Shown piece after piece: positions 140 through 59,880 of a stretch of 60,000 bases of DNA (the first letter of the stretch is position 1; every line of letters starts with the position of its first letter). The notes beneath the pieces are model-generated. The model worked only from the letters and a program-made list of their open reading frames with translations, was not told the DNA's origin and made no database searches. The translations under genes were made by a program, and so were the position numbers. The DNA is taken from NCBI RefSeq assembly GCF_026151205.1, contig NC_087072.1:14672169-14732168 (forward strand), given 5' to 3'. Source of the stretch: Bolinopsis microptera (lineage: Eukaryota > Ctenophora > Tentaculata > Lobata > Bolinopsidae).

Positions 140-3100
140 GTAAGTTACATTTTAATGTATCATTATACTACAGATGATTGCACGCTTCGAGGTATAATTT
201 CATTCAGAACATCTACTGCTTCAGTGTCAGTCTTGAAATAAATTAAGGAATGTGAATTAACGAGAGTTAAATCATTAAATCCGACTCTGCTAGGACATGC
301 CCATAAATGAATTTCTTGGATCCCGAATGGAGACAAAAAAAGCTGATCTTATTTTCATTTGTTCATATAAGACGATGGTTCAATAGTCAAAATATTCAAT
401 CTCAACGAATTTGAACGATGAAAATGTTTAAATACCTCTGATAGCCGATTTAAGCGCATCTTTAGAATTGTTGTCCAATGCTAAATATCGTTGCACGGAT
501 TGAATATGGTACTCATCTTAAGGCCAGAGGGGGGGGGGGGGGGGGGGGGGGGGGGTAAGGGGTCAACAAATTCTACCAAAATATTATTTTCTAAATCGAT
601 TTAATTTTGACAAAAACATTGCCGCTATTCACATATTTGTAGCTGATTAACTTTATTTTATAATTGAGGTTAACCGATTTTCGCAAAATTGACTATACAA
701 CATTGAGGTTAATAAAATTGAGGTTAATATTTTATTCCACGCCATAATTTTTCGTTATTTCGGTCAGCAAATGTAAACTCTAAATTTTAGGTTCATAATT
801 ATCAGAAAAAGTAATATCCAAACGTGATTAAATGAGGTTAACCTCGTCTTTTAGATATAGCGAGAATAGATCAAATGATAGAGTTACTATTTTCATCGTA
901 AGTTTACGGTATACACATTTCTAAATAGATGACGTGTCGATTGACTTTCTTTTATCTTGGGAAAATGAAAAAAATGAGGTTAACCATCACATTTTGGTAC
1001 CGTAGGGAGTATACATACGATTCTTACTTATGTTATGTACCACAATATCGAAGTGAGGTATCTATTGGTATCACAATGCCTACAACTATAATCACGTGAC
1101 AAAGGTGATTTGAACTGACCATATTTTAGTAGAAGATTTTACCCGTAAATGGCTAAAAAATGAGGTTAACCTCTCATTTTTTGAATATCTGACCAGTCAA
1201 TTACATGTTAACCTCAAAAACTTAATCGTTATACTGTGCAAATGTTTTACTACATATATAATAACATATTGATAAACCAATCCCACTATTATATGGTCTA
1301 AAGCGAGGTTAACAACCAAATTTTAAGCAGTTAGTGTTTACAGGAAGTCTTGGTTAACCTCATTTTTTACAATACAAGGACATTAACTACTGAAAGTGGC
1401 TAAAATCATTTAGGGGACGGCCAGGTCTGATCAAGCAAACGTTATTAAGTGTATAAAAAGTCCTAACTAACGAACTGTGATACATTCCAGTGAATATTCA
1501 AAATTTTAAAAACACTAAATTGCATCTATCTCAAAACACATTTTGTGACTTTCAGTTCCTTAGTTGAGAAAACCAGCCACTCCCTGATATTGAGATTTGG
1601 TACAGTGGTTCCTTGGACAACTATCTAGATATTAGATGCAGCGATTTTTTTTATTTGACTCGTTTCTCGAATTATGAGGTTAACCAGCTAAATTTTCCGA
1701 ATTTTTGACATGGTTAACCTCATAATTCGAGAACTGAGTCAAATTAAAAAAATCGCTGCATCATAAATGAGGATAATTGTCCAAGGAACCACTGTACCAA
1801 ACCTCAAGATCAGGGATTGGCCGGTTTTCTCAACTAAGGAATCGAAATGTCAAAAAAGTTACAGCCGTTTAAAGTTCCAGTTTAACATGTAATTACAGGT
1901 AAACCTCAAAATTGAGCGCGCGATATCTCAGAAGCGCAAGGTCAGATTTTGATCCGGTTTTTTTCTTTTTGCTCGTCTCCAGTAGCTATTATCAAATATG
2001 CAAAAACTACAAAAGTGCCATTTACCCCCCCCCCCCTCTGGCCTTAACCCGAACCTAATCGATCGATTTGACGATTATATATTGGTATAAATTCTGATTA
2101 TGATCAGAAAGAAATATAAACTCACAAGAAATATAACCCCTTCTATCTGAAATTTATTATTATGACACCGACGTCCGACATCGCTCAATTTTAAAGATTT
2201 GTGTATCACGACTCACGAGATACTTAAACTCAAAAACGTCAAAAATCCTTAGGAAGCTTGTGTCGGTAGATCGATTTTTGTCTGTACTATCGAGGGTTAA
2301 AATAAATTTAACCCTCATATTATGGGGTTTACAATAATTGGTTTTCGTAAAGTACTTTAATTTCAGCCATCAAGCTATAAACTCTCATCATTCTAATTTG
2401 TTCAGGTGAAAGCGGGGAAAACGAAAATCGCATGTTTCACATTAGTAAATCCGCACGCAGAGGATGCAATGATAACAACAGTCAAATTCCCGACCACTAA
2501 GACATTAGTGCTACACGGTTACTCGACGGAGGAGAGCAAGAATCGAGCTTACAAAATACCGCCAAATTCGTGTATTGACGTCAGGGTTGCCTGGACACCA
2601 CGTATGTACATATTATACATATCATCAACGACGTTAATTACAACCATTAAATCTGGCAGACTGCTTTGGTTTCACAACCGCTTTTTGGTGATACAATGAT
2701 TTTGTGGCAAGATTTATCCTTGTTTTTCTCTTTTGTTAGTCATTACTTTCTTCTTATAACCAAGTATACAAGCATAAGTTGCTCACATTATATCGTTTCA
2801 GAATATGCCACCGCTGATACATGGGGAATGAGACAGACAATTGAGCTGGGATGGGATCGAAAAAGATTTGTCATTTTGCTCGTTGGATTCGTTATGGACG
2901 GCAAGAAAAAGGTAAAGTCAATTTTGTGATGTTATAGCTATAGTGTTGTTGATAAAAATAGAACACGGGTCTATGAAAACTGATTAACCAGTGGTTGGAC
3001 TGGCACACAGCGTTCCGCGCGCGCGAAAAATCAAAATCTCCTAACGTTAAACTTGTGTTAAAAGTTTTCATCAAGCGCGCAAATCCATTTTCGTGAAAAT

Positions 3101-6100
3101 TTCAAAAATTCGAATACCCGCTCACTCCATCAATGATCTAATCAACTTCAACGAAATTGTACCTAATCTAAATCGGTGTTCGGGAGGTGAGCGTTAACTT
3201 TGTTATATTGATTCTTAAATTTTTTTATTAAATACTTTTCAAATTTTACAGAGTACAGCAATAGATGAATATAAAATAGAATCGTTCAAAATATCGCCCC
3301 CATCTGTAAAATATGATGGGCACCCAAACACGGTAAACACATAGTGAACTATGTCCGCAGTAACTTGGACCCATTACATCGAATTAATCTAAATCCAAAA
3401 ATTTATGAAAAACTATTTAATAACAAACAAATCCATGGTGAATAACTGTGGATATAGAGTCAAAATTGGTAATTCAATACGTCAAATTCCAGATACATTA
3501 GATACAGGTCTGAAATGGTCATTAATGTGTGAGAAGGTGTGCGGGTGAAGTGTGATATGATGTTGAAAGTAAAGGAAGGTAGATAAAAAAAATTAATAAA
3601 ACAAAAATAATAATAATATGGGGAGCAAAGAGACTAGGCTAGACTGTTGTTTCACTATCCAATAAACATTTCCATAGATGCTTAGTGACCTCAGCTTTGA
3701 AAAGACTAGTAGACACAATCTGTCTTACCTGTAAAGGGAGTCCATTCCACAGTATATGGGTTCTGTAGAAAAATGATTTTGCCAGTGGGCTATTTGAGGT
3801 ACATGTGGTGTGTGAATTCTGACTTAACTTAGGTAAAATTGATGACACAATAGACAGACTGTCGAGGTGGCAACGTCTTAGTCGAGAAGTGCCCTGATAT
3901 AAAGAGAGATAGTGAGGCAGCGATACAGGAATTAAATTGTTAAGAACTTTGTGGAAAAAAATAAGATCATTCAAGTCAAACTTTTGAGACAAAGGGAGAA
4001 TGTCGACAAGCTTGCACTTTTTGACATATTGCTCAGGTGGATAACTGCGGCCCTCTTCAGACAGAATCCATTTAATAGCTCTCTTTTGGAGACTTTCTAA
4101 TTTATCACTAAGTGATTTATTACAAGGGCGCCAGATTATGGAACAATTTTCGAATTGGCTACGAACCAGGGAGAGGTAAAGCGCCCGGCGACGTTTCTGA
4201 TCAATGACAATATGGCCATCTCTTCTGACCATACCAAGTTGTTGGCAGGCCTTAGTATAAATTCTGTCGCACTGACTATTCCAACTTAGCTTAGGAGTAA
4301 CATCGACTCCAAGATCTTTTTCTAACTCTAAAATAAGCAACTAAGATTTCGAAATCTCTTAAATTTCAGAAAGCAGTTAAGAACTTAAACAGAGGAAAGA
4401 AACCTGAAAAACCACTCGATTTGTCGATGGGACGAGACGAAAACGACGTCAATCTGGTTAATATATTGAACAAGTTTCTTACTGATGCACTGCTGATTTT
4501 AATTACATGCATGTAATAATTGAAATTTCTAAATTTTAGTCGCAACCTCTACTGGTGACTGTAAACAAACCATCCTCAGCGTTTTAAAGGAGTTGTCAAT
4601 CACACAGCAAAGAATACAAAATCTAGTGTTCCAGATGTGAGACCGAGCAAAATCTTGGGTGAGAACCAGAAAAGTAATATTAAAGCTGGAACGAGGACTG
4701 AGACCGGTAAAAGGAAACTCCCGAAGAAAAACAAACCTCTAGCCCTAGATTTGAAGTCACCAATGGAAATGGACGATGTGAAGAGTGATGATCTTCTGCC
4801 CACTCCTCTTAGAACTGAGTTTGGGAAAGAGAGCCCTTTCGCTTGCATGGACACACCAAATTTCATCGACACACCGGTTTGTGAACTGAAAATAAACTGT
4901 TCCTAATTTGACTTTATTATGATATCTACTTAGTGTTTAATAAGGCATTACACGATAGAGAAAAATATCCTCATTATGTAGAAATCTTATTTTGATTAAT
5001 TTATTCATCAAACCAAACAGCGACCGAGTAGGCGTCGGTCAATGCGAATTGTGGAGAGAGAATGTAAGAAAAAGAAAGTGTCCTCTGTTTATATGTTCTC
5101 TGATGATGACACAATCATGAATGTGAAGACTGAAGTGTGTAAAAAGCAGTTTCAAATTATCATACTTGCATGACAAAGATTATACTTGTATTTGGAAGCA
5201 TCCTCTACAACTTCTTTGATCCGTTAATGAACAAATTTAATGCATTTAGAATAATCTTAGAGATTAAACAGCCCACATCCAGAAACACGCCATCTTGCCA
5301 AGCATTCTGGGAGGAAATTTTTTTGGGAGGAAAAAACGGGAGGAAAAAGAGGAAATTTTTGAGAAGTTACTCCTACGGGTAAACCGCCCCTAAAACGTCA
5401 CCTGTTTTTTGGGCCCAGATTGCCGAGTTAGGGCTAAATTTACAGGGTTCTGAAGTGTCTAGGAATAATATTTAAACCTTTTTCTAGCCTGCCAGGAAGA
5501 TTTGGAAATTTGAAAATAAAATCAGGTACAATTTTTTTGACGTTGAAATGGAGTCACTTTTAAAACACCACCCCTAAAATGTCAACTCTATATGTGTGAT
5601 AATTACAAAATATACAGGAGGCCTGATTTATCTTTTGTCACTAGTATTAATTGTTTTGTCTTATTAAAACATTAAGCTACTTGAAAACATTCACTCACTA
5701 AAGGAAGTACCTCAAAACCGTAATCACCCCTTAAAATGTCACGTGCACCACCCCTAAAACGTCAGCTAAAACAGGTTGTGTAGCACTCAGAATGTTGCTC
5801 AATTATTAATTTTAACCACTTCTGGGAAAAATATAACCTATTTCTGAGAGGTGTCGACCAGAATTTCTCTCTCTGTTGAAAAAAAATGGTGGAATTTAGT
5901 CAATTTACTTTTTGCGACATTTTGGGGACTTTTTTTTGAATACCCAGAACTTACGGCAAAACAGTAACTCAGTCAACAAAATTTACACCTGTAGTTAGAT
6001 TATCTAGTTATAAACTAACAATCGGCACAAAAGAAATGGATTCAATGTGATTTTAACCTTGTGCAAATTGCATGTTTTAATTGCATTTTTTGGGATTTTT

Positions 6101-9100
6101 TACATCATCCTGCATTTTGGCAATTTTAGTGACCTGTAGTTAACTAAGCCAACCCATTAATCGATCTGACCTTCTCTATAGACTAGATTTGACTGCTTTT
6201 AGCAAAATTGAATGTCAAAAACTACGGTTTTTGGTACTTACTAGTTTATGGTAAACCTATGATATGCCCCCTAAAATGTCATTTTTTTTCTCCCCTAAAA
6301 TGTCAAATTTGTATTTTGTTCGCATGGTGTGCGATAATAGCTCTTGTTTTGGCACTTGTTAATTATTAACATCAACTATTAACGAAATGTGAGTATGCAT
6401 TGCATCTTAGGAAAAGCCTGCGTAATTTGATCAGGTTAAAATGACATTTTAGGGGGGATAATTAGACATTTTAGGGGATGTTTATTGCAATTAATAAAAT
6501 AAAACTAATTCCTTGAGCTGCCAAAGCTTTCCAATATTACCATTAGATGCTAAATATGATGTTTAATAGGCTGGTACCTCCATTTTATGGTGCTTGTACT
6601 CTCAAAGCCAGAATCTGATAAAATGACATTTTAGGGGGCGGCCAGGTGACATTTTAGGGGAGGGTAGTAATATTGAGTAATGTATAACTTTCCATATCTC
6701 CAGTCATATGTACAAAGTTGCTAAAATATGTAAATATCACTATCCTAGACCAAAACCGAGTTAATATTAATGAATTCCAGAGTTATAAAATTGTGCGCTT
6801 TTTTTCAAAAGTAAAAAATTCGTACAAAGTGAAAAAATTGCCCTTATGGCATCATTTAGATTCAATTTCAGGATGTGGCAGGGTCTGAATGATATTTTTT
6901 TATGTTTAGGAGTTACAAATGATTAGGTAAGATACTTTTTAAGAAGATGGGATCCAATCAAATAAGAGTGGCGTTTTAGGGGTGGGTGACATTTTAGGGG
7001 CGGTTTACCCGTAAATTTCGAAATATTTTTTTGGAATAAAAAAATTTTTCGATTGTATAAAAATCAAAGAGGAACATCCTGTCAGTTTTGGAACACAGTG
7101 AAATATTTTGAAATTTATCTATTTACAAGACTTGGTTTTTGACATCTGCTCAATATCAACTTTGGGGCTGGCCTTCCCCGACTTGAAGGCCATTTCTTTA
7201 CATACATGATATATGTGTGATCACTGTAACGATTACATACGATACAAAATTGTTCGTTCAAAATAGACCTCTATAACCAAATTACTTCCATGGCTTTTAT
7301 GCCTTTACAACTTTACAAAATTCGCCTTGCCACAGAATTTAGAAAAAAACGCATCTGGGAGGAAATATAAAACTTTCTGGATGTGGGTTAAACAGTAAGA
7401 TTGGGAGAAGGAATTATTTTAACAAGCCCATTACACTAGTATTCTATTTTAACGTTTAAGGGTGGCATAATGGCGGTTTCGCCATTTACTTAACTGCAGT
7501 GTGACAGAAGTTAAAGGTAAAGTCGAAAGCCAGATTTCACAACATCTTGTTTTTCATACTATTCAATATTCTGTCTGTAGTCTGTCAATACTAGCCGAAT
7601 GTTAATTTAAAAAAGAATATAAGGAGCATGGTTGTTCTTAATCGATTTTAAAACTAAAAATTTGTTCAGGTTGAAGAGCAGCCTAATCGTCGAGTAACCG
7701 CCTTGAAGGTGGAGACGACACCAACCGCATCTTCACTCGGGGACTTCGACAGTCCCTTCCAGGACCTTCTCACCCCGTTCACTCCCACTCCTCTCCCTGG
7801 CATCCAGCAGACACCGGTACGTGAACCATTGTGTAGAATTCACCTGACCTCCCATGATCGCTTATAATACATATGTTAGAACTTTTGAAAGCTCCAAAAA
7901 TTGTGAGTTTTTGAGGACGAATCCAAACAGCGTAGTAGAAAGCGCTGGTCGACGCGAAGTGTGATGAGAGAATGCAAAAGGCACAAGAAAATGGAGTTGT
8001 TCTCTATGTTCACTGATGAGTGTGTGAGTGTGAAAACTGCATGATCAGCTACACTGTCTTTCAGAATGATTCTGGGAAAACACATCCTTGTTGAATAATA
8101 AATGCCTGTTTTCTCGCTCTTTTTTACAGTTCTGTGATATGTCGTCACTGAACTGAAAATTTATAAATCATGTATCAGCACTGCTGAAGCACTTAATAGT
8201 ATGTTCCTGTGATAATCCTATGTTAAAATCATGTATGTATTTCTCAATTTTACGAAATTTGTATGGCAAAATTGCTACCAATCAAAATCTACCAGCTAAA
8301 ATATACTCTCGACCTCTAACATAATAATTGAGGAATATTTCTCGCAATTCTTAGTTCGTTATATATTTTCAATTTACGTTTTATTTAAACCGAATCCGCC
8401 GTCAGGCTGATATAGTGCCCAATGTAGCACCAACCCCTGTCCAGTCCATGGTGAAACAGGAATGTGTTAGTAGCGGTAGTGGAGAGGGGAGCACTGGAAC
8501 CCCCGGGCGCAAGCGCAGAACTTGGGGTGCGCCTGACCAAAACCCGCTCTTCACAACACCCAACGTCATGACCAGGTTGGCTCTTGTCTCTTGTTAAAAC
8601 CCTTTCAATTTGACCCAGACCACATATCAACGTTGCCAACTATGTTTTCACTTATTTGTTAAACTTGCCGAAATAGCTAGTAACACAATGATATCAGGGC
8701 CATGATGAAGAAGATAGGAGAAGAGAGTAGTTGCCAGCAGACCTTTATGGAATGTCACACTGTAGCGCAGACCTTCATGGAATGTCACACGATAAACCCA
8801 GTAGACAGCATGTTAGAGAACGCCTCCCCACCCCGGGATAGGGAGTGCGATAATCCGCTCAGTCCTGGACCCACCCCTTTCACCCCTCCTAATATAACCC
8901 TGGCGGAGAAGAAGCCAGCTCAGGGCGCTGCCCGACCTGTCCCCAACTTAAACATTACTCCTGAGGATATCGGCAGGACTTCAGGTCCTCTCACTGCAAC
9001 TCCTCTTCACCCGGTAAGATTTAATGTGATATTGGCTTTGGGAGCTGAGGGCACTTTAATAAAATATAATATTAGATTATTAGGATTTAATTTACGGCCC

Positions 9101-27568: not shown

Positions 27569-27615
27569 ATGAGAACGGTCAATTAAATTTTGTTCCCACG
27601 TCTTGTCTTACCCTG

Positions 27616-27930
27616 CAGTTCCACGGCTCAGTTTTGCAACCAGATTTGCTCACATTTTTTCTTACATTTTTCTGACCGGAAATGAAATTCAAAAATATTT
27701 CTCCGCATTTCATTATAATGCGCCCACGTGCGCGCGCAAATCTGCGTTCAAAACCAACCGTGGGAACGTACATTGTAAACAAAACTGCCTTCGCGGAGTT
27801 TTGCCTTTCAAAACTCTTTTCTCGGAGTTTTGTGTCAAATCTGGTCGCAAAACTGAGCAGTGGAAATGGGCTGTAACAGCCCAGTTCCACGGCTCAGTTT
27901 TGCGACCAGATTTGACACAAAACTGCAGAA
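27616..27930. mobile_element. MITE with CAGTTCCACGGCTCAG ends, 3' of ZF2
   Basis: The ends CAGTTCCACGGCTCAGTTTTG (read inverted near 27840-27873) and internal AAACTCC/GGAGTTTTG motifs define a 258-bp copy, followed by a partial end copy at 27882-27930. Paralogous 3' regions (for example at 58150) run through the site without it. Related copies form an inverted pair at 31616-32278. Confidence 0.7.
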
Positions 27931-31568: not shown

Positions 31569-31615
31569 ATTAGAACGGTCAATTAAATTTTGTTCCCACG
31601 TCTTGTATTACCCTG

Positions 31616-32278
31616 CAGTTCCACGGCTCAGTTTTGCAACCAGATTTGCTCACATTTTTTCTCACATTTTTGCGACCGGAAACTAAATTCAAAAATATTT
31701 CTCTGCATGGAGAAATATTTTTGATATGACCCAAAACTCTGTGAAAGCAGTTTAACCTGGGCGCTCGCGTGGGAAATTTCATTATAATGCACCCACGTGC
31801 GCGCGCAAATCTGCGTGCAAATACCAACTGTGGGAACGTACATTGTAAACAAAACTGCCTTCGCGGAGTCTTGCCTTTCAAAACTCTTTTCTCGGAGTTT
31901 TGTGTCAAATCTGGTCACAAAACTGAGCAGTGTAAATGGGCTGTTACAGTCCAGTTCCACGACTCAGTTTTGCGACCAGATTTGACACAAGACTCCGCGA
32001 AAAGAGTTTTGAAAGGCAAAACTCCGCGAAGGCAGTTTTGTTTACAATGTAGGTTCCCATGCAGGTTGGTATTTGCACGCAGATTTGCGCGCGCACGTGG
32101 GTGCATTATAATGAAATTTCCCACGCGAGCGCCCAGGTTAAAACTGCTTTCACGGAGTTTTGGGTCATTTCAAAAATATTTCTCCGTGCGGAGAAATATT
32201 TTTGAATTTCATTTCCGGTCGCAAAAATGTGAGAAAAAATGTGAGCAAATCTGGTTGCAAAACTGAGCCGTGGAACTG
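31616..32278. mobile_element. Inverted pair of CAGTTCCACGGCTCAG elements
   Basis: Two copies of about 330 bp (31616-31945 and 31952-32278) face each other, giving a 660-bp palindrome in the 3' region of ZF4. Each holds repeated AAACTCCGCG / GGAGTTTTG and AAAATATTTCTCC motifs and a CGCGCGCACGTGGGTGCA block. A third partial end starts at 32292. Several apparent reading frames here are simply products of the palindrome. Confidence 0.75.
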
Positions 32279-32831
32279 CAGAGTAACAGCCCAGTTCCAC
32301 GGCTCAGTTTTGCGACCAGATTTGACACAAAACTGCAGAACAATATCACGATTACGATTCCAATGAACTCAAAGCTTTACCGAAAAGTGGTCATCTTGCT
32401 CACCACAGCCTCACACGGTAGCCCGATCAGATTTGTGACCATTTTGTTGTGAACTTTATTGTGACTATATAAGAGAAAACCAAGAGTGGTTTGATTTGAT
32501 TGAATATGAACTATGTAGGGAAAGTTGAGAGCAAAATGTGAAATATCTGCTAGTTAGCAATATTGATAGCAGCAATTTGGTCTGAAATATTTTATTCTCG
32601 TAAGTTATCTTTTTCTTAAGTTTATTTTTAATCGAATTCTGAAAGTCATACAAATATCTTGATATAATAAATTTATCAATTTTGCCATTTGTTTCATCTA
32701 GCTGTTTCTCTAGCATATTACAAATGTAGTTGTTGCTTTCACTTGCAGTTTAGAAAATTTAAATTGGCTTTGTGCAAGTTATGTCACTTAAAACCCAAGA
32801 TTATTTTTTATTGACATTATTTTTCTCAGAA

Positions 32832-36241: not shown

Positions 36242-38185
36242 TGTACAGCAATAGCAGCAAATCTGGGGAAACTTGGTGGACATTGACTTTTTTCACACAA
36301 TTTGAGTATGTTGACTTCAACATTATGTTGCAGCTCATTGTGGTTAATCTCAATGTTGGAGTGATGTTTTTCTGGTGCACAAAACACTGCAGTACGGTTA
36401 TGTTGAATAATTGAGGTTAATGAATCCTCTATGTGGCCACTATGGTGGTTAAAATACCAGTTTTAGGGTTAACCACCATTTTGAGATATGATATTATGAA
36501 CTGAGTAGTCATTATATTGAGATCATATCATGGTGCAACTATCACAAAAGTTTTCAAACCTCATGGGGGGCATTTTGTGGTCCTAATGGTGGTTAAATGG
36601 AAGATGAACGGTGAGCTATAAATATTGCTCTGGTTATAGATGTATAGTGGTGGTTGTTCATTTGTGCATGGATGATAATTTTTTATCACAAATGTGCAAT
36701 TTAATAGTATGATTGATTTGAGGTGGTTAATATTCGTAAAAAGTGCTAAAAAGATGGTTAAAATGTCAAAATTTGTTGTTAACCACCAATCAAAACATTA
36801 TTAATGATTTTAGTCAACATTTTATGGTCAACAAAGGACATTTGAAGGGTCTTGATAAAAGTTATCAAGAAATGTTGTCATAAAAGTGGTTAAAAGGGCT
36901 ATATTACTTGCTAGGCTGTTGAACAAGGCATCTATTAAAGTGAAAATTAACCACAATATGAACTTCAGATAATGGTTTGCTATCCAAATGAGTGTATATT
37001 TGTTTGCAAATGCATAATTGACCCCAAGTTCATGCATTCCGATCAATGTGCAGCTATGGTGGTTAAAATGTCTCGAAAATACCCTATATTTGCACTAATT
37101 AACCATTTTTAGAGCACATATTAGCTTTGTAAAGCTATAGCTGGCCATGCTACATTATCTAGATATAACTACCTGCTCATTTATATGACCAGAAACATTG
37201 CTGAGTCCTATGTTGCGTCCATCATGGTTAATAAAGGTCTAAAATTGACCAAAATCAGTGTTTTTGGTCGTTTTAACCACCATACGGCCACACATTTTGT
37301 TACATTATCTTTAAAATCACTTATTATCCTCCAGCTATCTCTCATAATCAAATTTCAAAACAAAATAAGGCACAAAAAGTTCGGAGGTTGCTGAATAATG
37401 GTTAATTTGTGATGGCTTCTGTTGACCGAAAGTCCAAAATAAACATGTTTTAACCACATTGAGGCCACATCTAAGGTTTTATGGTATTGGGACCATAGCC
37501 AAAAGTTTTGGGCACCTGAATGGTGACCTCTGCTTTTGAAATTATGGTGATATTTCAATGCTGTGCCATACCAGGTGGTTAAGTACGCGCACGCGCGCGC
37601 GCACGCGTACAAACATGGTTTTTTTGATATACCACAGTTGGTGGTTAACTGTTCTACATCAAACCTTCACTAAAAGTATTGGGCACCATAGTGGTGACAT
37701 AATATATAAAGAATTTAAGCCTAGACTAAATATGTTGGCCTACAGATGGTTAAGTACGCGCACGCGCGCACGCGCGCGCGCACGCGTACACTATAACATA
37801 AACAAATAAACCACTCCACAGACCACATTTATTAATTTTTTTAATTTCCTTCTTCAACTATGTGTCAATGAACCATTTTTGTTCAATAATGACCATCAAT
37901 ATTAACTGTAGTACTTATATCTTCACTGTAGTAAGGGTTTGGGTGTTAGAGGTATAAAAAATGTCCACTAACAAATCAGTCATTTTTCGACTACTTAACC
38001 ACCTAACTCAGCACCAAAATGTTCTGAGATTTTTTTCGTTGCAGTATCATGAAGCTATGACATTTTTGGACCTATGTAAATATTCAGATTACTAAAATTC
38101 ATAATCTGTGATTTTTAAGGGGGGGTTAAATGCTTCAAATTGGTGTATTTCAAAGTTTCCCCAGATTTGCTGCTATTGCTGTGTA
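36242..38185. mobile_element. Inverted-repeat element filled with GGTGGTTAA motifs (element 4)
   Basis: The inverted ends match over 29 bp, starting CAGCAATAGCAGCAAATCTG at 36246 and finishing at 38181, flanked by TGTA (36242-36245, 38182-38185). The intact site is visible upstream of ZF2 at 26278-26295 (GGCTTTGTGTAATTTATG). More than a dozen GGTGGTTAA or TTAACCACC motifs are spread inside. Two long CG-alternating palindromes lie at 37584-37610 and 37754-37789. No transposase is encoded. Confidence 0.85.
37584..37789. repeat. Two GTACGCGCACGCGCG...CGCGTAC palindromes
   Basis: Alternating purine-pyrimidine blocks of about 27 and 36 bp, each preceded by GGTTAA and about 170 bp apart inside element 4. 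The sequence type favours Z-DNA or cruciform structure. Confidence 0.8.
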
Positions 38186-46235: not shown

Positions 46236-46258
46236 TTCTTCTTCTTCTTCTTCTTCTC
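46236..46258. repeat. TTC microsatellite in the LINE 5' UTR
   Basis: About seven TTC triplets on the + strand (GAA on the LINE sense strand) within its 5' UTR. Confidence 0.7.
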
Positions 46259-47583: not shown

Positions 47584-49359
47584 ATGGCAAAACAAGAACC
47601 TGAAGAGTTGAATAGGGACAATCCTAAAACAGATATGAACGAGATCGAACAACCTGTTGCTAGCTCATCCTCTTGTGCATGTAAATTGGAGGATGGCTGC
47701 CCTGAATTTAGTAATGTTCCTTTCAAGACTGAACCAACTACAAATGAAGATATAAAGGAAGTGGGTAATATGAATTCCTGTAGGTTAGTCATAAATACTG
47801 AACCTGTAGACTGTAAAGAATTTCAATGTGATCTCTGTCAAGAGGCAGTCGATCAACCTAACTCATCTCTTTCTAATGTACAATCTGTCCCTGATCCTCT
47901 GAAGACCAACCCTCATAGCAATGTGGTTATCTCTCATTCTATTGGAAATACTAATCTTTCTGGGTCTGGCCTCAACTTAAAGAAGCGTATGTCAACTCAC
48001 CCTGGAGAGAAATCTGACACTGGCAGTTTGTGTGAATATAGGGCTAGCCAATCAAGCCAATTAAAGAAAGATATGTTAACTCATACTTTAGAGAACCCTT
48101 ATCCCTGCAGTTTGTGTGACTATAAAGCCAGCCAATCAAGCGATTTGAAGATACATATGTTGACTCACACTAGATATAGAGAGAAACCTTATCCCTGCAG
48201 TTTGTGTGACTATAAAGCCAGCCAATCAAGCGATTTGAAGATACATATGTTGACTCACACTGGAGAGAACCCTTATCCCTGTAGTATGTGTGACTATAAA
48301 GCCAGCCAATCAAGCGATTTGAAGATACATATGTTGACTCACACTAGATATAGAGAGAAACCTTATCCCTGCAGTTTGTGTGACTATAAAGCCAGCCAAT
48401 CAAGCGATTTGAAGATACATATGTTGACTCACACTGGAGAGAACCCTTATCCCTGTAGTATGTGTGACTATAAAGCCAGCCAATCAAGCGATTTGAAGAT
48501 ACATATGTTGACTCACACTAGATATAGAGAGAAACCTTATCCCTGCAGTTTGTGTGACTATAAAGCCAGCCAATCAAGCGATTTGAAGATACATATGTTG
48601 ACTCACACTGGAGAGAAACCTTATCCATGTAGTATGTGTGACTATAGGGCTAACCAATCAAGCGATTTAAAGAGACATATGTTTACTCATACTGGAGAAA
48701 AACCTTATAAATGCGATATTTGTAGCTACTCTGCAAGACTAAATTCTCATCTTACTGCTCACAAACGAACTCACACTGGAGAAAAACCTTACCCCTGCAG
48801 TTTGTGTGGCTATAGGGCCAACAGATCAAGCGATTTGAAGTCACATATGTTTACTCACACTGGTGAGAGACCGCACAAGTGTGATATTTGTAACTACTCT
48901 GCTGCAAGTAAAAGTTCTCTGGTGATTCACAAACGAACTCACACTGGAGAGAAACCTTACCCTTGTAGTTTGTGTGACTATAGGGCTGGACAACAAAGCC
49001 AATTAAAGAAACATATGGTGACTCATACTGGAGAGAAACCTTATAAATGTGATATTTGTTCATACTCTGCAAGACAAAATGGCCATCTCACTGCTCACAA
49101 ACGAACTCACACTGGTGAGAAACCTTACCCCTGTAGTTTGTGTAACTACAGGGCCAAAAAATCAAGCGATTTGAACAGACATATGCTGACTCATACTAGA
49201 TATAAACCTTTAGAATTTGAATTAGAACGGTCAATTAAATTTTGTTCCCACGTCTTGTCTTATACTGCAAAACAATATCACGATTACGTTTCCAATGAAC
49301 TCCAAGCTTTACCGAAAAGTGGTCATCTTGCTCACACGGTAGCCCGATCAGATTTGTGA
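47584..49359 (+). CDS. ZF10: chimeric C2H2 zinc-finger protein, 13 fingers
   Basis: 591 aa from the ATG after TTTTTCTCAG. The start is type I (MAKQEPEELNRDNPKTDMNE) and the body type II, so it is a subtype hybrid. FKTEP is kept, but the second SUMO-type lysine is lost (INTEP). Thirteen fingers; six come from three tandem copies of a 174-bp two-finger unit (48091-48612) with alternating TGENP and TRYREKP linkers. One base is missing in the KPFRI codons near 49208, so the frame runs on for about 48 residues into the fossil type I tail, ending HLAHTVARSDL at 49359. Confidence 0.88.
   Translation: MAKQEPEELNRDNPKTDMNEIEQPVASSSSCACKLEDGCPEFSNVPFKTEPTTNEDIKEVGNMNSCRLVINTEPVDCKEFQCDLCQEAVDQPNSSLSNVQSVPDPLKTNPHSNVVISHSIGNTNLSGSGLNLKKRMSTHPGEKSDTGSLCEYRASQSSQLKKDMLTHTLENPYPCSLCDYKASQSSDLKIHMLTHTRYREKPYPCSLCDYKASQSSDLKIHMLTHTGENPYPCSMCDYKASQSSDLKIHMLTHTRYREKPYPCSLCDYKASQSSDLKIHMLTHTGENPYPCSMCDYKASQSSDLKIHMLTHTRYREKPYPCSLCDYKASQSSDLKIHMLTHTGEKPYPCSMCDYRANQSSDLKRHMFTHTGEKPYKCDICSYSARLNSHLTAHKRTHTGEKPYPCSLCGYRANRSSDLKSHMFTHTGERPHKCDICNYSAASKSSLVIHKRTHTGEKPYPCSLCDYRAGQQSQLKKHMVTHTGEKPYKCDICSYSARQNGHLTAHKRTHTGEKPYPCSLCNYRAKKSSDLNRHMLTHTRYKPLEFELERSIKFCSHVLSYTAKQYHDYVSNELQALPKSGHLAHTVARSDL
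48091..48612 (+). repeat. Three tandem 174-bp two-finger units
   Basis: Units start at 48091, 48265 and 48439 and are almost identical. Each encodes two fingers with the same helix (SQSSDLKIH), the second after a TRYREKP linker. ZF2 and ZF9 have the unit once. Confidence 0.92.
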
Positions 49360-50258
49360 CCATATTGTTGTGAATTGTATTGTGACTATATGGACACGTT
49401 CATTGAAGTTTGAGGATATTGGTAAATATTAGTGACCCTACTGAATGGCACGATGATGTAAAATGTGTCACACTATGAAACTATATAAACCCTCTAACCC
49501 TAAGATAATCGTTTCATCCTCTAGATAAACTTTGTCGCATAACGATATCTTTATCAGACGATAAGATATCGCTTAAATGCGGCCGGCAGTGAGTTGTAAA
49601 CTTTGTCACACTATAAAAACGTGACGGAGTTTATATGGACCCCTTGTTGCCGTATTTGACCAAATTTTCGAATTTCCAATTCATAGAATAGCTGTATATG
49701 ACTATTATCTACATATTTAGCGACTTTTTTCCTTAAATGGTAGCACCATGTAAACTCCGTCACACATTTAAGAAATTTATATGAGGGATGTTTATGACAT
49801 CCTGACAAGAAATGCCGAATAGTCTAGCATTATTTTGTGAGCTGAATGTGTTTGGAATTGTTCACATATTTCATTGTTATAGGCAGATACAAATACAGAA
49901 GGCAGAAATAGGTAAATTTAGTCACATAAATTTGTATGATATCTCAACATGTGTGAAATTGAGTAAATATTAGTATACCAACTTAAAAACCCTATATTAC
50001 GTACTATGGATCAATTAACAATATTTCAACCATACGCCGGTCATATAAATTATTATATGGCAGTGATATGTTAACATTGGATAAATTTCAACACCTGAAC
50101 AGGGTAAAAATTTGTAAATTTCGTCACAAAAAAAATATTATAACTTTATTTGCTCCGTGTTGGCAAAATAACTAATTTATCGACTGTATAGTGATGGTGA
50201 TAAAGTAACATTATATACTAATTGAGGTATGATTCTTCAAAATAGGGGCAAGAAATGT

Positions 50259-51055
50259 AAATTTCGGGGGGGAATGCAACGTCAATTAATGTCAGTATTC
50301 CATAAAAACCCCAAACTGACATTGACATTAATTGACATTAATTGACATTAATTGACATTAATTGACATTAATTGACATTAATTGACATTAATTGACATTA
50401 TTCGATAAATATTCAAGATATTCACGTCTATGTAAGTTAGATCGGTTCAAAAAAACAAAATGTCCTTAAATAATTATGAATATGTTCTTATCTGTTGATC
50501 CTTAGGTTCAAAGACCACCAAAAAAATTTCAGCTTCCAACTCTTCCATCTTCGGTCCCCACCGGCCACGCCCATATTTTATTGGTTTCTTATACAGGTAA
50601 AATATCTAGAATCGGCTTTTTTAGTATGAAGGAGTAATGTTAGCTGTTCAAGATTCGTTATTCAAAAATAAATGTCATGAAGGCATTTCGTTTAATGTGG
50701 GTTTTAAGTTCTGATGATGTTGAGAACCACGCCCTTGGATGGCCACGCCCATTTAAGAAAATTAAATTTCGGGAAACCGTATTATTTTAGTTTTATTGTT
50801 TAATGATCTGAATTTTTTCACATTTCACATTTCCATATGTGATAGTAGTGAATAAATTGATGATATAAACGTTCTAAAGTGCTAAAAATATGGTAGAACT
50901 ACATAATCTCTGGTCGAAAAATATCGTGTCAATTAATGTCAGTATTCCAAAATTTTGCAAAACTGACATTGACATTAATTGACATTAATTGACATTAATT
51001 GACATTAATTGACATTAATTGACATTAATTGACGTTGCATTCCCCCCAAATTTCG
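50259..51055. mobile_element. Nested 781-bp element with ATTGACATTA arrays (element 6)
   Basis: Inserted in a GTAAATTTCGTCACA motif of element 5. The 8-bp duplication AAATTTCG (50259-50266, 51048-51055) is exact. The inverted ends are GGGGGGAATGCAACGTCAAT and complement. Two arrays of ATTGACATTA (about eight copies at 50322-50400 and six at 50965-51033) share the same strand orientation next to CAGTATTCC. An 8-bp duplication suggests hAT-type mobilisation. Confidence 0.85.
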
Positions 51056-51059
51056 TCAC

Positions 51060-51680
51060 ATCAGCCATTGCATGAGTTAGGTAGATTTTCTTTCATATCA
51101 CTGGCCTTATTATAGTTGGAATGGATTTATACAGGAAATATAGAAACCCATGCCCATTTTTCATCACATTGAAATTATACTGTTGGGGCAGGAAAAGTAA
51201 ATTTCGTCACATTTCGGTAGATTAGTGATATCAAACTCAGCATTGTTAAACTTGAGTTCTGATTTGCTGAAAAATAACCTACCAATAATTCCTGGAAGAA
51301 TATTGAATTCTAATTGGGGTATGGTTCTTCAAAATAGGGTCAAGAAATGTAAATTTCGTCACATACGTCATTGTAAAATGTAGATACATTTTCTTTCACA
51401 TCAACAGTCCTAATTATAGTTTGAAATGATTATATCAGAGATAAAGGAAATATAGAAACCCATGCCCATTTTTCATCACATTGAAATTATACTTTTGGGG
51501 CAGGAAAAGTGAATTTCGTCACATTTCGGTAACTTAGTAAAATTAAACTCAGAATTGTTAAACTTGAGTTCTGATTTGCTCAATAATAACCTACTAATAA
51601 TTCCTGGAAGAATATTGAATTCTAATCGAGGCATGTTTCTTCAAAATAGGGTCAAGAAATGTAAATTTCGTCACATCAGC
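51060..51680. repeat. Two tandem copies of a 310-320 bp unit in element 5
   Basis: Both copies contain CCCATGCCCATTTTTCATCA, GGGGCAGGAAAAGT, GTTAAACTTGAGTTCTGATT and TTCCTGGAAGAATATTGAAT in order (51060-51360 and 51361-51680). A partial copy precedes element 6 at 50220-50258. Confidence 0.8.
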
Positions 51681-51727
51681 CATTGCATTAGTTAGATAGA
51701 TTTTCTTTCATTACATCAACTGCCCTT

Positions 51728-53018
51728 ATTATTATTGTGACAATTTTTACATCAACTGCTCTTAACTTGAATCAGCTCTATCCGTGCATCGTCCTTATAT
51801 ACAGTTTTCCCGCCTTCCAAACCAAAATCAGATATAAATGATTTCGGCAATTCACCCAGAATTTTAAATTCCATATAATGTGACAGAATTTACATCGTTT
51901 CCCAATAAGTGCATGTATTTGCTAACTTTTCAAAACAACATATTTTAGGGCTATGATTGGTAGAAGAACCATCAAATAATGATTTGAAAGGGTTTTGAGG
52001 ACACCTCACAGTAGAAAAGAGGTATCGTATTCTGAGTGTGACAAAGTTTACGAAATATTACCTTAAAACCGTTCGATCCCTGCCATTTAGCCAAATGTTG
52101 TATCATAATTGTTAGAATGACCTAATCTACTATATTTTAAACCAAAAAATGCTAATTGGGCAGCTATGGTTAACACAGTCACAAAAATGTGACATTTTTT
52201 ACATTATAGTGCCTAAAAACAATAAATTGTATTTCTGAGCCGTGTATATGGAAGTATGGGCCACGTGGCTAATGTCCAGAACTTCTGAACACGCTATTTT
52301 TTTTTGGTTTACCAATATCCTTAAACTTCAACATGAACGTGTCCATTTACGATTTCATATCATTTTGTGACAATGTTTACATCAACTGCCCTATACTTCA
52401 ATCAACTGTATCCGTGTATTGTCCTCATATAGAGTTTTCCCGCCTTCCAAACCAAAATCAGATATAAATGATTTCGGAAATTCACCCAGAATTTCAAATT
52501 CCATATAATGTGACAGAATTTACATAATTTCCCAATAGCCAAGTGCATGTATTTGTTAACTTTTCAAAACAACATATTTTAGGGCTATGATTGGCAGAAG
52601 AACTATCAAATAATGAGTTGAAAGGGTTTTGAGGACAACTCACAGTAGAAAAGAGGTCTCGTATTCTGAGTGTGACAAAGTTTACGAAATGTTGCCTTAA
52701 AGCCGTTCGATCACTGCCCTTTAGGCCTACATTGTATCATAATTGTTAGATTGACCTAATCTACTATATTTTAGACCAAAAAATGCTAATTGGGCAGCTA
52801 TGGTAAACAATGTCCCAAAAATGTGACATTTTTTACATAATAGTGCCTAAGAGCAATACATTTTATTTTTGAGCAGTGCATATGGGAGTATGGGTCACGT
52901 GGCTAATGTTCAGAACTTATGAACACGCTAGATTAATATATGTTAAAATTAAACCACTATCGTCAAAAACGCTGTTTTAGAAATTTACCAATTTCCTCAA
53001 ACTTCAATGAACGTGTCC
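51728..53018. repeat. Tandem duplication of the right end of element 5
   Basis: 51728-52346 and 52362-53018 are similar throughout (GTGACAAT.TTTACATCAACTG, CCCGCCTTCCAAACCAAAAT, AAGTTTACGAAAT.TT.CCTT). The first copy ends with its own inverted-repeat end. Confidence 0.8.
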
Positions 53019-53397
53019 ATATACGAGAAAACCAAGAGTGATTTGATTTGATTGAATATGTACTATGTAGGGAGAGTTGAGGCAAAATGTGAAATATCTG
53101 CTAGTTAGCGATATTGATAGCAGCAATTTGATCTAAAATATTTTATTCTCGTACTTTATATTTTTCTTGTTTATTTTTAATCAAATTCTGAACGTCATAC
53201 AAATATCTTGATATAATAAATTTATCAATTTTGCCATTTGTTTCATCTAGCTGTTTCTTGGGAAATTCAAGATTTGCAAGCATATTATAAATGTAGTTGT
53301 TGCTTTCACTTGCAGTTTAGAAAATTTAAATTGGATTTGTCCAAGTTATGTCACTTAAACCCAAGATTATTTTTTATCGACATTATTTTTCTCAGAA

Positions 53398-55201: not shown

Positions 55202-55207
55202 AATAAA
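55202..55207 (+). terminator. Poly(A) signal after ZF11
   Basis: AATAAA about 390 nt after the stop, as after ZF3 and ZF8. Confidence 0.45.
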
Positions 55208-56355
55208 GTGCTGGGCTAATAACATGATCAGTTTCTGTCCAACACTGTTATTGAGCTTCGACCATGTTGATCGAGCAATTATATGTTGCTCAGGCAATTA
55301 TTAGTGGTGGTTGGCATATTGTGTGGTCACTTTTCAACTTTCAACCCCCCCCCCCCCTCCTTCCGTCATAAGTTTTACTACTTTGCTATTATAGTTAAAA
55401 TCACACTTTTATTTCAGAAATGGCGGAACAAAAACCTAAAGAGTTGCGCAAGGATAATCATAAAATAGAGATGATAAAGATCGAGCAACCTGCTACTAGT
55501 TTATCATCTTGTGCATGTAAATTGGAGGATGGCTGCCCTGAATTTAGTAATGTTCTTTTCAAGACTGAACCAACTATAAATGAAGATATGAAGGAAATGG
55601 GTTATATGAATTCCTGTAGGTCAGTCATAAAAACTGAACCTGTAGACTGTAAAGAATTTCAATGTGATCTTTGTCAAGAGTCAGTCGATCAACCTAACTC
55701 ATCTCTTTCTAATGTACAATCTGTCCCTGATCCTCTGAAGACCAACCCTCATAGCAATGTGGTTATCTCTCATCCTATTGAAAATACTAATCTTTCTGGG
55801 TCTGGACTCAACTTAAAGAAGCGTATGTCAACTCACACCGGAGAGAAATCTGACACTGACAGTTTGCGTGAATATAGGGCTAACAAATCAAGCCAATTAA
55901 ACAAAGATATGTTGACTCATACGGGAGAGAAACTTTATAAATGCGATATTTGTACCTACTCTGCAAGACAAAATGCCCATCTTACTGCTCACAAACGAAC
56001 TCACACTGGAGAGAAACCTTATCCCTGCAGTTTGTGTGACTACAGGGCTAAAACATCAGGTGTTTTGAAGAGACATATGTTTACACACACTGGAGAGAAA
56101 CCTCACAAGTGTGATATTTGTAACTACTCGGCTGTATGTAAAAGTTCTCTGTTGATTCACAAACGAACACATACTGGAGAGAAACCTCAAAAGTGTGATA
56201 TTTGTAACTACTCTGCTGCAACTAAAAGTACTCTGATGAGTCACAAACGAACTCACACTGGTGAGGAACCTTACCCTTGTAGTTTGTGTGACTATAGGGC
56301 TAGCCAATCAAGCAATTTAAAGGTACATATGTTTACTCACACTGGAGAGAAACCG

Positions 56356-57892
56356 GCAACTTGTACGAACACCGATGGGACATTAAGACAACATTAAGAC
56401 AACATTAAGACAACAATAAGACAACATTAAGACAACATTAAGACAACAATAAGACAACGTTAACGCAACAAACACCAATAAGACAACAAACGATAAAACA
56501 ACATTAAGGCAACATTAAGGCAACATTAAAGCAAACATTAAGACAACATTAAGACAACATTAAGGCAACAATAAGACAACAATAAGACAACAATAAGACA
56601 ACAATAAGACAAGATTAAGACAACAAACACCGATAAGACAACGAAATAGGATAAAATATTAAGACAACATTAAGACAACATTAAGACAACATTAAGACAA
56701 CAAACTCAATTAAGACAACATTAAGACAACATTAAGACAACAAAATCATTTAAGACAACATTAAAACAACAAATTCTTTAAAACAACATTAAGACAACAA
56801 ACTCGTTTAAGACTACATTAATGCAACAAAATGTTTAGAATATGTAATATACGGCCGGGATTTCATTGCCGCAGTTAAAAAGGGTAGGATTAGGTTCTTT
56901 TGCGATAGTCAAAACGCGACAACTAGCGCTGGATGGCGACAACTAGCGCTATCCAGCGCTAGTTGTCGCCATCCAGCGCTAGTTGTCGCTATCCAGCGCT
57001 GGATAACGCTGGCCAGCGCAAAATATATATGTTCGATAATTGTCGCTATCTAGCGCTAGTTGTCGCCATCCAGCGCTAGTTGTCGCCATCCAGCGCTAGT
57101 TGTCGCTATCCAGCGCTAGTTGTCGCTGGCTATGCGACACTGTCGCACGCGATAGTTTGCGATGGCCAGCGCAACTGGCCATCGCAGAAAACAGTTCGAT
57201 AACTAGCGCTGGATAGCGACAACTAGCGCTGGATAGCGACAACTAGCGCTGGCCAGCGCTAAGCGATAGCCAGCGCTGGCCAGAGCTGGCCATCGATATC
57301 CAGCGCTAACCAGCGCTGGCCAGCGCTAGCCAGCGCAATGTATCAAAATCATATACTTGCGATATTACTCGGATGATGATTAATCACTTTACACTCGACT
57401 GTCACGTGACTTTTTAAACCCATTTTCTGACTCTAGCTGGTTCTGAACGACTTTTCGAAACCCTATCCCTCTAATCTGATCCCAACCCTAACCCTAACCC
57501 AATCCTTAACAAAAACATATGCTGAAACCCTAACCCTAACAAGAAATTAGACTAACTTCCTTATACGGTCATATCACGTGATCGATACAGTTTTTCGCCA
57601 ATATCTCGTCAGGAGAGCATTTTAACCCTATGTCATGGGGGTTGATTCGGAATTAGCGTCCGAAAATACATTGCATCGATTGAAGTTGGTTACAACCATC
57701 GGGGGCCCTTTTAGAACAATCTCGAACTCGAAGATCGACTGTGATTTAGCACGCTCGATATTAGTATTACTCGTCAGCCAGCGCTGGCCAGCGCAATATA
57801 GTTGCGATATTACTCGTCAGCTAGCGCTGGCTAGCGCTGGTTAGCGCTGGCTAGCGCTGGTTAGCGCTGGTTAGCGCTGGCTAGCGCTGGTT
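56356..57892. repeat. 1.5-kb insert of AGACAACATTA and AGCGCT motif arrays (element 7)
   Basis: 56378-56828 is a tandem and spaced array of AAGACAACATT-like units. 56925-57345 and 57776-57892 hold tens of AGCGCT palindromes in units such as CCAGCGCTAGTTGTCGC, with orientation reversing around a perfect hairpin (arms GCGATGGCCAG / CTGGCCATCGC, 57159-57185). CCCTAA repeats lie at 57484-57500 and 57529-57541. No terminal inverted repeat or target duplication was found. Confidence 0.8.
57484..57541. repeat. Short telomere-type CCCTAA tracts
   Basis: Two tracts of two to three CCCTAA units (TTAGGG on the other strand) lie inside the ZF12 insert. Confidence 0.7.
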
Positions 57893-58259
57893 TTGAAGGT
57901 ACATATGTTGACTCATACGGGAGAGAAACCTTATAAATGTGATATTTGTACCTACTCTGCAAGACAAAATTCCCACCTCACTGAACACAAACGAACTCAC
58001 ACTGGTGAGAAACCTTACCCCTGCAGTTTGTGTGACTATAGGGCCAACAAATCAAGCGATTTGAACAGACATATGCTGACTCATACTAGATATAAACCCT
58101 TTAAAATTTGAATTAGAACGGTCAATTAAATTTTGTTCCCACGTCTTGTCTTATACTGCAGAACAATATCACGATTACGATTCCAATGAACTCCAAGCTT
58201 TACCGAAGAGTGGTCATCTTGCTCACACGGTAGCCTGATCAGATTTGTGACCATATTGT

Positions 58260-58318
58260 TGTGAATTGTATTGTGACTATATAAGAGAAAACCAAGAGTG
58301 ATTTGATTTAATTGAATA
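58260..58318 (+). pseudogene. Fossil terminal finger in the 3' region of ZF12
   Basis: TGTGAATTGTATTGTGACTA through AAAACCAAGAGTGATTTGAT aligns with the type I CEIYCGY..TKSDLIEH codons. The upstream codon CGA of type I is TGA here (58246-58248), a CpG-type change. Confidence 0.7.
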
Positions 58319-58412
58319 TCTACTATGTAGGGAAAGTTGAGGGCAAAATGTGAAATATCTGCTAGTTAGCAATATTGATAGCAGCAATTTTATCTAAAAT
58401 ATTTTATTCTCG

Positions 58413-59880
58413 TACGGGTATCGGCCTTACAAAATGACAGGCCTCACAAAATGACAGCCCGCATAGACCATGCTGTAGCTTAGGTTCCCTATACATTGAA
58501 CCCTATTCCTTTTACTGTATGAAAGAAAAAGCATTAATTAACACTTCCCAAGGAATGATAATGACATAGAATCTATATTTCTTACATAAATATGGAAGTT
58601 TTTGCTGTTCAGTCATTGCCCCGCCTAACTGTTACCCAGAATGGAGACCAAAGTTTTGAATTTAACCCCAGAAAACCAGGTACTACCATGACTTATGTCA
58701 ATCAAAGACTACTCTGGTCAAATAAAAAAACTGATTTAGTGACCTTGGTAGAAGAAATGACAAAAAAATGACCTAGCCTCACAAAATGACAGTGTTATGC
58801 CTCACAAAATGACAGTTTTATTTTATGATACAAAGATGTCATATTTATATTGGATGCCCCTTGCCTAATTATTGGTATTCTTAAACCCAGTAAGCTCATG
58901 ATGAGCCTAAATGTGTTTGTTTGATCATCAATTTTGATCAAAATGCCTCACAAAATGACACCGAAAAGCCTTACAAAATGACAATGTTTCAGATTGAATT
59001 ATTTTCATCATCTAAAATGGATCAGAGACAGTCAATACAAGAAGGAGTTAAAAATAATCATATTCTGACAGTTAACAATCAAGTAGCATTAAAATAGTGC
59101 AGTTCTGATATCAAAACTTTGATTTCAAACTCTTTGATTTCAAACTCTGATTTCAAAACTCAACGAAATAAAGAGCTTCTATTTTGTGAAAGCAGAGAGT
59201 AATAACAACTCCTAAAACATGTCAAACGTTAACTAAACACTGAAAAGTGATCTATCCAGTCATAGAAAGTATCAAATATAACCAAATACTGTGTTCAAGT
59301 ATGAAAACAAAAAATGATTTTTACGCCTCACAAAATGACATTTTTTAAATTTTTTCAAAGTATAAAAAATGTTCCTTTTTAAATATATTTTGGTAAAAAC
59401 AGAACTGGTATAATATAAACAACATATATATCTAACAGTAAGACACGTGAAAGAATAATGAAACTTTTTCCCAAATCGGATTTGAAGTGATGCCGTTTTG
59501 GGTTGTCATTTTGTAAGGCACTATCTCACGCGAAATTGCCCAACTTTTTTTAATCATCCTTTTTCCTGTAAAAGCTATTCTAATCTTTAATCTATTATAT
59601 TTATCTAACTGTCCTAGGTGAAATCAAATTTCTATAGGCTGCTGTTAAAAAATGACAGCCGTGACGAAATTGTCATTTTGTAAGGCATGTTTTTTTGGAA
59701 GATTTCAAAGATGACAATTTTTATCGCAAAATTTACGGTTTTTCAATCAAATCAACCCCCGGGAAGAAAAATATACCTGTTGAACTACCTATCTGGATAA
59801 TAAAACATGAACAAAACTCATTTTTGTGCATTTCAGAGCCATCTCCTTTTTCGTGTCATTTTGTAAGGCCGATACCCGTA
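58413..59880. mobile_element. TA-flanked element filled with CCTCACAAAATGACA motifs (element 3)
   Basis: Inverted ends CGGGTATCGGCCTTACAAAA (58415) and complement (to 59878), flanked by TA within GTAC. The uninterrupted site CTCGTACGTTATATTTTTCT exists at 47331-47350 (as GTCGTACGTTAT). The motif is direct at 58425, 58442, 58777, 58800, 58946, 58969 and 59326 and inverted at 59504, 59671 and 59854. The CGGGTA end is shared with element 2. Non-coding. Confidence 0.85.

Follow-up and report, generated by a model that had tools for sequence, protein, structure and literature searches.

Five motif-bearing inserts in a zinc-finger gene region

A 60,000 bp stretch of the genome of the ctenophore Bolinopsis microptera (C1:14672169-14732168; hereafter the window) carries a C2H2 zinc-finger gene cluster, as judged by 84-bp repeat units, together with five large inserts, which we have designated elements 1 to 5 (E1-E5; Table 1). 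They range in length from 1,468 to 2,846 bp when element 6, which is nested in E4, is excluded. E1-E5 represent several families of cut-and-paste DNA transposons, all of them gene-less, non-autonomous and recently active, and each contained 10-18 copies of its own motif of 11-16 bp. The insert coordinates in an earlier note, made from the sequence of the window alone, differed from the element boundaries by no more than a few bases. Its view of the inserts as one design, and not one family by homology, also held, as the motifs differed and the target duplications fell into three or four classes.

Table 1. Elements and motif clusters of the window
Feature	Position (bp)	Strand	Target duplication	Ends	Motif and description
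E1	518-2047	none	TTAA	TTAAGGCCAGAGGGG	TGAGGTTAACC x14; non-autonomous DNA transposon
E1 internal palindrome	1550-1847				Inverted arms, 137 bp
E2	5374-7013	none	TA	29 bp, beginning TACGGGTAAACCGCCCCTAAAAYGTCAC, motif contained	CCCCTAAAATGTCA x13; non-autonomous DNA transposon
E3	36246-38181	none	4 bp (TGTA here)	CAGCAATAGCAGCAAATCTGGGGAAACTT	ATGGTGGTTAA x18, mixed orientation; non-autonomous DNA transposon
E4	49388-53022 (duplication included)	none	ATAT	GGACACGTTCATTGAAGTTTGAGGAWATTGG	GTAAATTTCGTCACA x17; interrupted by element 6
E5	58413-59880	none	TA	27 bp, TACGGGTATCGGCCTTACAAAATGACA	GCCTTACAAAATGACA x10; pogo-type transposon that has probably lost its middle by deletion
E5 left motif cluster	58424-58983	+			Starts 58424, 58441, 58776, 58799, 58945, 58968
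E5 right motifs	59325-59869	none			59325 direct; 59504, 59671, 59854 inverted
Element 6	50267-51047	none	8 bp, AAATTTCG (50259-50266, 51048-51055)	Inverted, GGGGGGAATGCAACGTCAATTAATGTC	Nested 781-bp element; two ATTGACATTA minisatellite arrays

Copies were sought over the organism's own genome (264,652,675 bases, 232 contigs), and 40 candidates per element, the window copy included, were scored. This genome-wide collection, which the earlier note had proposed as a check, returned multi-copy families with defined ends for all five inserts, the copies being for the most part 94-99% alike. E1, E2 and E3 were matched near end to end by 38 (95-100% identity), 30 (96-100%) and 39 (94-100%) of their 40 candidates respectively, and E5 was matched end to end by 35 (95-100%). 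The ends of E4 occurred at 396 places genome-wide, and its copies aligned as two halves. In 19 of these copies, for example C5:20147196-20150040, the halves met at the site of element 6 with an 8-bp overlap, which indicates that they are without element 6; other copies had approximately 300 bp more of E4-like repeat between the halves.

All five families had sharp inverted ends and family-specific target duplications. Flanks were read for the window copy and for 12 further copies each of E1, E2 and E3, 9 of E4 and 13 of E5. Both flanks were TTAA in 13 of 13 copies of E1, and TA in 14 of 14 copies of E5 and 12 of 13 copies of E2, the right end of the remaining E2 copy lying beyond the stretch. 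The two flanks of E3 carried identical 4-bp duplications, of varying sequence, in 10 of 13 copies, and those of E4 identical AT-rich ones (ATAT or ATAA) in 8 of 10. One copy of E2 was nested in another copy of E2 (L036); the uninterrupted sequence has a single TA, so the duplication is shown directly. Since three or four integration types are represented among E1-E5, their common layout did not come from descent of one family. E2 and E5 are probably related, judging by the TACGGGTA ends common to both.

The families also contained structural variants. Two variants of E2 (L080 and L081; 1,943 and 2,017 bp) had an extra central stretch, with twelve sites, six direct and six inverted. E4 was built of repeat units of approximately 150 bp and its right end was duplicated (1551-2120 against 2182-2754, ~91%); one variant of it (L084) had the common ends and a different arrangement of units. 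Poly-G/C tracts were observed just inside both ends of E1 (529-555 and 2025-2036), their length varying between copies, and tracts resembling them were present in the ends of some E2 copies.

The earlier note had further placed element 6 and an array, element 7, in the same design. The 8-mer of element 6 is present 16 times, mostly inside the two tandem minisatellites, and the element is a separate insertion within E4. Element 7 consists of tandem arrays, and its membership was not borne out: neither inverted ends nor a target duplication were seen in its sequence, for which no genome-wide search was made.

Motif counts, boundaries and layout

Comparison with 100 dinucleotide shuffles per element showed the motif counts to be more than 10-fold above the shuffle mean in all five inserts. 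The mean was 0.37 for TGAGGTTAACC in E1 (14 observed), 0.14 for CCCCTAAAATGTCA in E2 (13), 1.46 for ATGGTGGTTAA in E3 (18; shuffle maximum 6), 0.15 for GTAAATTTCGTCACA in E4 (17) and 0.03 for GCCTTACAAAATGACA in E5 (10). The possibility raised in the earlier note, that the counts might be no higher than base composition predicts, thus did not hold. In a motif-free test the most frequent 8-mer was present 11, 11, 14, 8 and 12 times in E1-E5 respectively, with a maximum of 5-6 over 200 shuffles of each. Across 101 control windows of 1,600 bp from the same 60 kb the median was 4 and the maximum, inside a zinc-finger repeat array, was 10, so that by this cruder test E4 is within the range of its neighbourhood. 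The E5 motif GCCTYACAAAATGACA had 686 exact copies genome-wide compared to 0 for its reversed control, and 99 of the 100 places listed were clustered, many of the clusters repeating the ten-site arrangement of E5. The motifs lean to A+T, and a CpG was found only in that of E4.

The motif copies of E1, E2, E3 and E5 are bounded islands amid essentially unrelated flanks, the mean identity of the flanks being 0.27-0.32 compared to 0.27-0.28 at random placement. In E4 the flanks reached an identity of 0.92 in duplicated units. Diversity within the motifs was compared to that of the spacers in 11-15 rows per family, mostly the more diverged copies, with the outer 60 bp excluded. With P-values from 2,000 circular shifts, uncorrected for five tests, the motif/spacer ratio was 0.24 in E3 (0 of 2000 shifts), 0.34 in E5 (P 0.026), 0.40 in E1 (P 0.036) and 0.71 in E4 (P 0.026). 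In these four families the motif columns were the less variable ones whether or not the outer 60 bp were counted.

Sites ran direct on the left and inverted on the right in E2 (12 of 13 sites, p 0.02), E5 (10 of 10, p 0.011) and E4 (16 of 17, p 0.002), the last of which the earlier note had not named. Adjacent sites 15-26 bp apart were above expectation in E2 (5 against 1.0, p 0.002) and E5 (3 against 0.65, p 0.019); distances of 17-24 bp recurred in these two TA families and in none of the other three. Many E4 sites were 138-162 bp apart; spacing was irregular in E1, E2, E3 and E5.

A likely parent of element 5

The pattern of the E5 ends, with at most one mismatch, was found at 127 places, 100 of which were listed, and six of at least eight long pairs were opened. 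One of these, L067 (G000:C9:9078365-9084095), is an element of 5,671 bp with the exact 27-bp ends of E5. Positions 1-672 and 673-1468 of E5 matched the two ends of L067 (~94%), with 4.2 kb between them, placing the junction at 672/673. The middle of L067 encoded a 574 amino acid (aa) frame in which residues 295-408 matched DDE_1 (PF03184; E 6.3e-6; score 26.3 bits, cut-off 22); candidate D, D and D/E residues were identified by eye only. Motifs were present in L067 only at 42-595 and 5145-5690, approximately 0.6 kb per end, with none in the 4.5 kb between, and their order was that of E5, with near-identical spacing on the left. When L067 was compared to the E5 majority sequence, 1 of 160 motif positions and 46 of 1279 spacer positions differed (p 0.055). 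A search with the transposase protein returned 12 matches. Besides L067 one near-identical locus was among them, L070, which had the same junctions and a middle 98-99% identical to that of L067, and which matched the transposase in separate pieces; the others were short or distant. Two further frames of L067 (327 and 118 aa) had no Pfam family at default settings, a sub-threshold RanBP zinc ribbon being present in the 118-aa frame.

The correspondence of E5 to a 5.67-kb pogo-type transposon minus approximately 4.2 kb of coding middle is well supported, and E5 is most likely an L067-type element that retained only its subterminal regions when the middle was deleted. An autonomous relative with a transposase and the same motif, which the earlier note had suggested looking for, has been found for E5 in L067. 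Its description of the inserts as saturated needs qualifying in this case: the look of E5 is most likely a by-product of the internal deletion, which joined two ends that alone bore motifs in the parent.

The other five long pairs (L064-L066, L068 and L069) were apparently E5 copies with foreign inserts, namely reverse-transcriptase frames as judged by eye in L064 and L066, low-complexity sequence in L065 and other inserts in L068 and L069. Relatives of the E5 transposase on C11 and C12 (52-54% over short stretches) were without TACGGGTA ends in the DNA read. A PDB search with the transposase gave three matches, to ribonuclease P protein (E 0.32-0.46), which were taken as chance. A tRNA-like short interspersed nuclear element, recognised by eye, was located at L067:2748-3113, beside the transposase frame, and was absent from L070.

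Other transposase loci and candidate parents of elements 1 to 4

Ends were searched for E2, E3 and E4, with listings that covered 100 of 107, 100 of 133 and 100 of 396 places respectively. The longer copies that were read looked like ordinary copies interrupted by other DNA. For E3 they were L073, L074 and, from an 11.8-kb pair (L075), the first 6,880 bases; for E2, L077-L079; and for E4, L082 and L083 (interior parts), L086 and L087. At L083:691-4152 a 1,154-aa frame with the look, by eye, of an R2-type long interspersed nuclear element (LINE) was inserted in E4, with approximately 50 bp duplicated. A single LINE recurring at one E4 site was not borne out, as L088 breaks elsewhere and L089 had no break within the 794 bases read. 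The E4-type copy L087 contained a TA-flanked DNA element (602-4434). Its inverted repeats were several hundred bp long, its ends bore a repeated ACCACTTTTTACCAC-like motif, and its Cys-rich coding remnants matched no Pfam family.

A distant pogo-type gene, L076 (DDE_1 1.9e-28, HTH_psq 5.9e-10), had an unrelated motif of its own, GGTCCGTTTTACCCC, in seven exact copies of one direction, four of them within 80 bp on the left side; its right end was not found. The piggyBac family PF13843 was matched at 26 genome loci. Two of these (L090 and L091) were read as possible parents of E1 and neither matched it. Outside 39-bp coding repeats, their top 8-mers were present four and seven times, the latter in one 122-bp cluster. 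Downstream of the piggyBac-type frame of L091, clusters of short words (AAAAGTAC x7, AACGTGGAA x3) were observed at 3936-4065 and 5127-5175, which could be subterminal repeats of that element itself.

Interpretation and alternatives

We consider it likely that the inserts are non-autonomous transposons of several families, that E5 is a deleted pogo-type element and that the motifs are transposase-binding sites. Dispersed transposase-binding sites had been offered in the earlier note as one explanation, and at the level of sequence this is the best-supported reading, given an E5 relative with a transposase and the same motif in the same places. In each family the motif is predicted to be bound by the transposase of that family or by a helper protein that the element encodes; for E1-E4, both the deletion and the binding sites are proposed by analogy with E5. 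In E5 the coding middle would have been lost and the two motif-bearing subterminal regions left joined. Several sites along each end may load transposase and help to pair the ends, and non-autonomous copies would compete for transposase made elsewhere, such that copies with intact sites would spread. A separate motif for each family would follow from the separate specificity of each transposase. In E4 duplication may also have raised the number of sites, as the homologous units and the duplicated right end indicate that sites can multiply in this way.

Several observations weigh against this interpretation. Parents of E1-E4 were not found among the long copies opened. The L067 transposase had no recognised DNA-binding domain, including an N-terminal helix-turn-helix, in Pfam up to E 5, and the stretches of L090 and L091 that were read had no dispersed array beyond small clusters. 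The sites of E2 were as variable as its spacers (ratio 0.87, P 0.38). Site flanks in E1 were above random on the left (0.315 against 0.277, sd 0.009), so the E1 motif may be longer or partly duplicated. The layout also varied more than the earlier note had it: of the elements to which it ascribed direct motifs on the left and inverted ones on the right, E2 and E5 conformed and E3 did not (13 of 18, p 0.33), and a clean split was likewise absent from E1 (11 of 14, p 0.22). Likewise, the motif had been placed in or beside the terminal repeat of the elements, and it lies within the repeat only in E2 and E5; the first copy is 148, 96 and 71 bp inside E1, E3 and E4 respectively, outside the terminal repeat. 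Close site pairs were not enriched in E1, E3 and E4.

A further adverse point is that in both L067 and L070 the middle is bordered on either side by an 8-bp direct repeat, TCAGGTTT. This fits a deletion between short repeats, but it also fits an 8-bp target duplication made by an insertion into E5. The transposase-bearing middle would then be a second mobile element in an E5 copy and E5 would not be its derivative, an explanation with which the flanking repeat, and a composite that is the same in two of two loci, agree. We judge it unlikely. The middle was without inverted ends of its own, the best match of its margins being 11 of 14 compared to a shuffle mean of 10.2 and maximum of 12, and the E5 junction kept no full copy of TCAGGTTT. 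Pogo-type DDE_1 transposases go with TA duplications, and, as expected for this type, TA was duplicated at the outer E5 ends and not at the inner edges. The lack of inverted ends on the middle and the fit of its transposase class to the outer TA ends favour deletion over insertion.

The motifs might instead have arisen passively when the ends were duplicated, in tandem or in segments, and have no binding role, which is close to the motif capture by repeated end duplication that the earlier note had also entertained. Of the five elements only E4, with its repeat units and duplicated right end, agrees with such capture, and the minisatellites of element 6 point the same way. As a general account it is quite unlikely, because in E1, E2, E3 and E5 identity ends at or near the motif edge, with flanks at or slightly above random, and because motif columns were more conserved than spacers in four of the five families.

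It is very unlikely that the motifs are sites of host proteins, such as C2H2 zinc-finger or chromatin-loop proteins, that control the elements or are exploited by them. The ctenophore Mnemiopsis has C2H2 proteins at loop anchors, and DNA-transposon insertions are present in more than 90% of its loop promoters (PMC12221973, cited from excerpts); the window itself lies in a C2H2 gene cluster. The loop motif described in those excerpts is, however, GC-rich with two CpGs, whereas the motifs of E1-E5 are A+T-leaning and family-specific, with CpG in E4 alone. In E2 and E5 the terminal repeat moreover includes the motif, and the E5 motif is also present in L067. A structural role through DNA shape (nucleosome phasing, hairpins or replication origins), which the frequent 138-162 bp spacing in E4 and the E1 palindrome might suggest, is scarcely credible given irregular spacing in E1, E2, E3 and E5 and a conserved sequence in four of five families.

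Comparison with known systems

Ac/Ds elements belong to the hAT superfamily, whose 8-bp target duplication differs from the TA, TTAA or 4 bp of E1-E5; 8 bp was found only in the nested element 6. Miniature inverted-repeat transposable elements (MITEs) are usually a few hundred bp in length. E1-E5 resemble them in being non-coding, homogeneous and multi-copy, with inverted ends and target duplications, but differ in their length of 1.5-2.9 kb. E5 and L067 resemble pogo/Tigger-like elements (Tc1/mariner) in their TA duplication, short inverted ends and DDE_1 transposase. Drosophila pogo reportedly has a few 12-bp sites per end.

The earlier note knew of no named class with this layout. The ends of maize Ac/Ds and of plant CACTA elements are, however, characterised by subterminal repeats to which the transposase or a helper protein binds (PMC3260210, PMC2613891; both cited here from excerpts). 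In Ac/Ds the transposase binds several AAACGG repeats located in approximately 200 bp at each end, and Ds-del elements derive from Ac by internal deletion (PMC3260210). Many copies of a short transposase-binding motif, a predicted one in the case of E5, in both subterminal regions are the point of likeness, and E5 would compare with Ds-del. Ac differs in its 11-bp ends and ~200-bp subterminal regions, whereas the zones of L067 are ~0.6 kb and its transposase is of DDE_1 type. In CACTA elements (En/Spm, Tgm) the subterminal motifs differ between families of one species and are bound by an element protein, and deletion derivatives move in trans (PMC2613891). CACTA ends and a 3-bp duplication are absent from E1-E5, and the location of the motif within the terminal repeat, as in E2 and E5, is a further difference.

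The word 'subterminal' is absent from the main text of a survey of the Tc1/mariner superfamily, and arrays of at least ten sites are not mentioned in the excerpts consulted (PMC7325037). The unusually conserved internal region described for coral MITEs in excerpts of PMC2872659 is a different feature. In the open-licence PMC literature we found no report of subterminal repeats in ctenophores or of a subterminal motif together with pogo and a TA duplication, and for subterminal repeats in animal genomes only one paper, on Helentrons, turned up; a search on pogo binding sites contributed nothing to the comparison. As far as sequence can tell, the principle is that of Ac/Ds and CACTA; what is new is the animal host, the long arrays in pogo-type elements and the several target-site classes.

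Other features of the window

A near-perfect foldback element with arms of 146 and 78 bp (95-100%) and a repeated CTCAGTTTTGCGACCAGATTTG was located at 31608-32334, with related arms at 27608-27924. It is inserted into one zinc-finger gene copy, in its tail, and a similar tail near 49250 was without it. Between 56380 and 57892 an 11-bp ACATTAAGACA array was followed by G+C-rich CCAGCGCTAGTTGTCGC arrays, interrupting the zinc-finger repeat region.

Significance

A bolder proposal, which we regard as doubtful, is that in this ctenophore lineage transposons of three or four target-site classes independently evolved long, family-specific arrays of binding sites, which spread inward well past the usual ends as the best-loaded copies won a scarce transposase. 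If this were true, the arrays would testify to an arms race over transposase, and every motif with its transposase would form part of a set of new DNA-binding specificities.

The subterminal architecture of the Ac/Ds kind, described in plants, is shown here in an animal pogo-type element beside two or three other target-site classes within 60 kb. For one family the ends, the non-autonomous copies, a likely transposase-bearing parent and a candidate binding site are now in hand, so that binding and mobility can be assayed directly. A search for motifs inside repeats could link orphan non-autonomous elements to their transposases.

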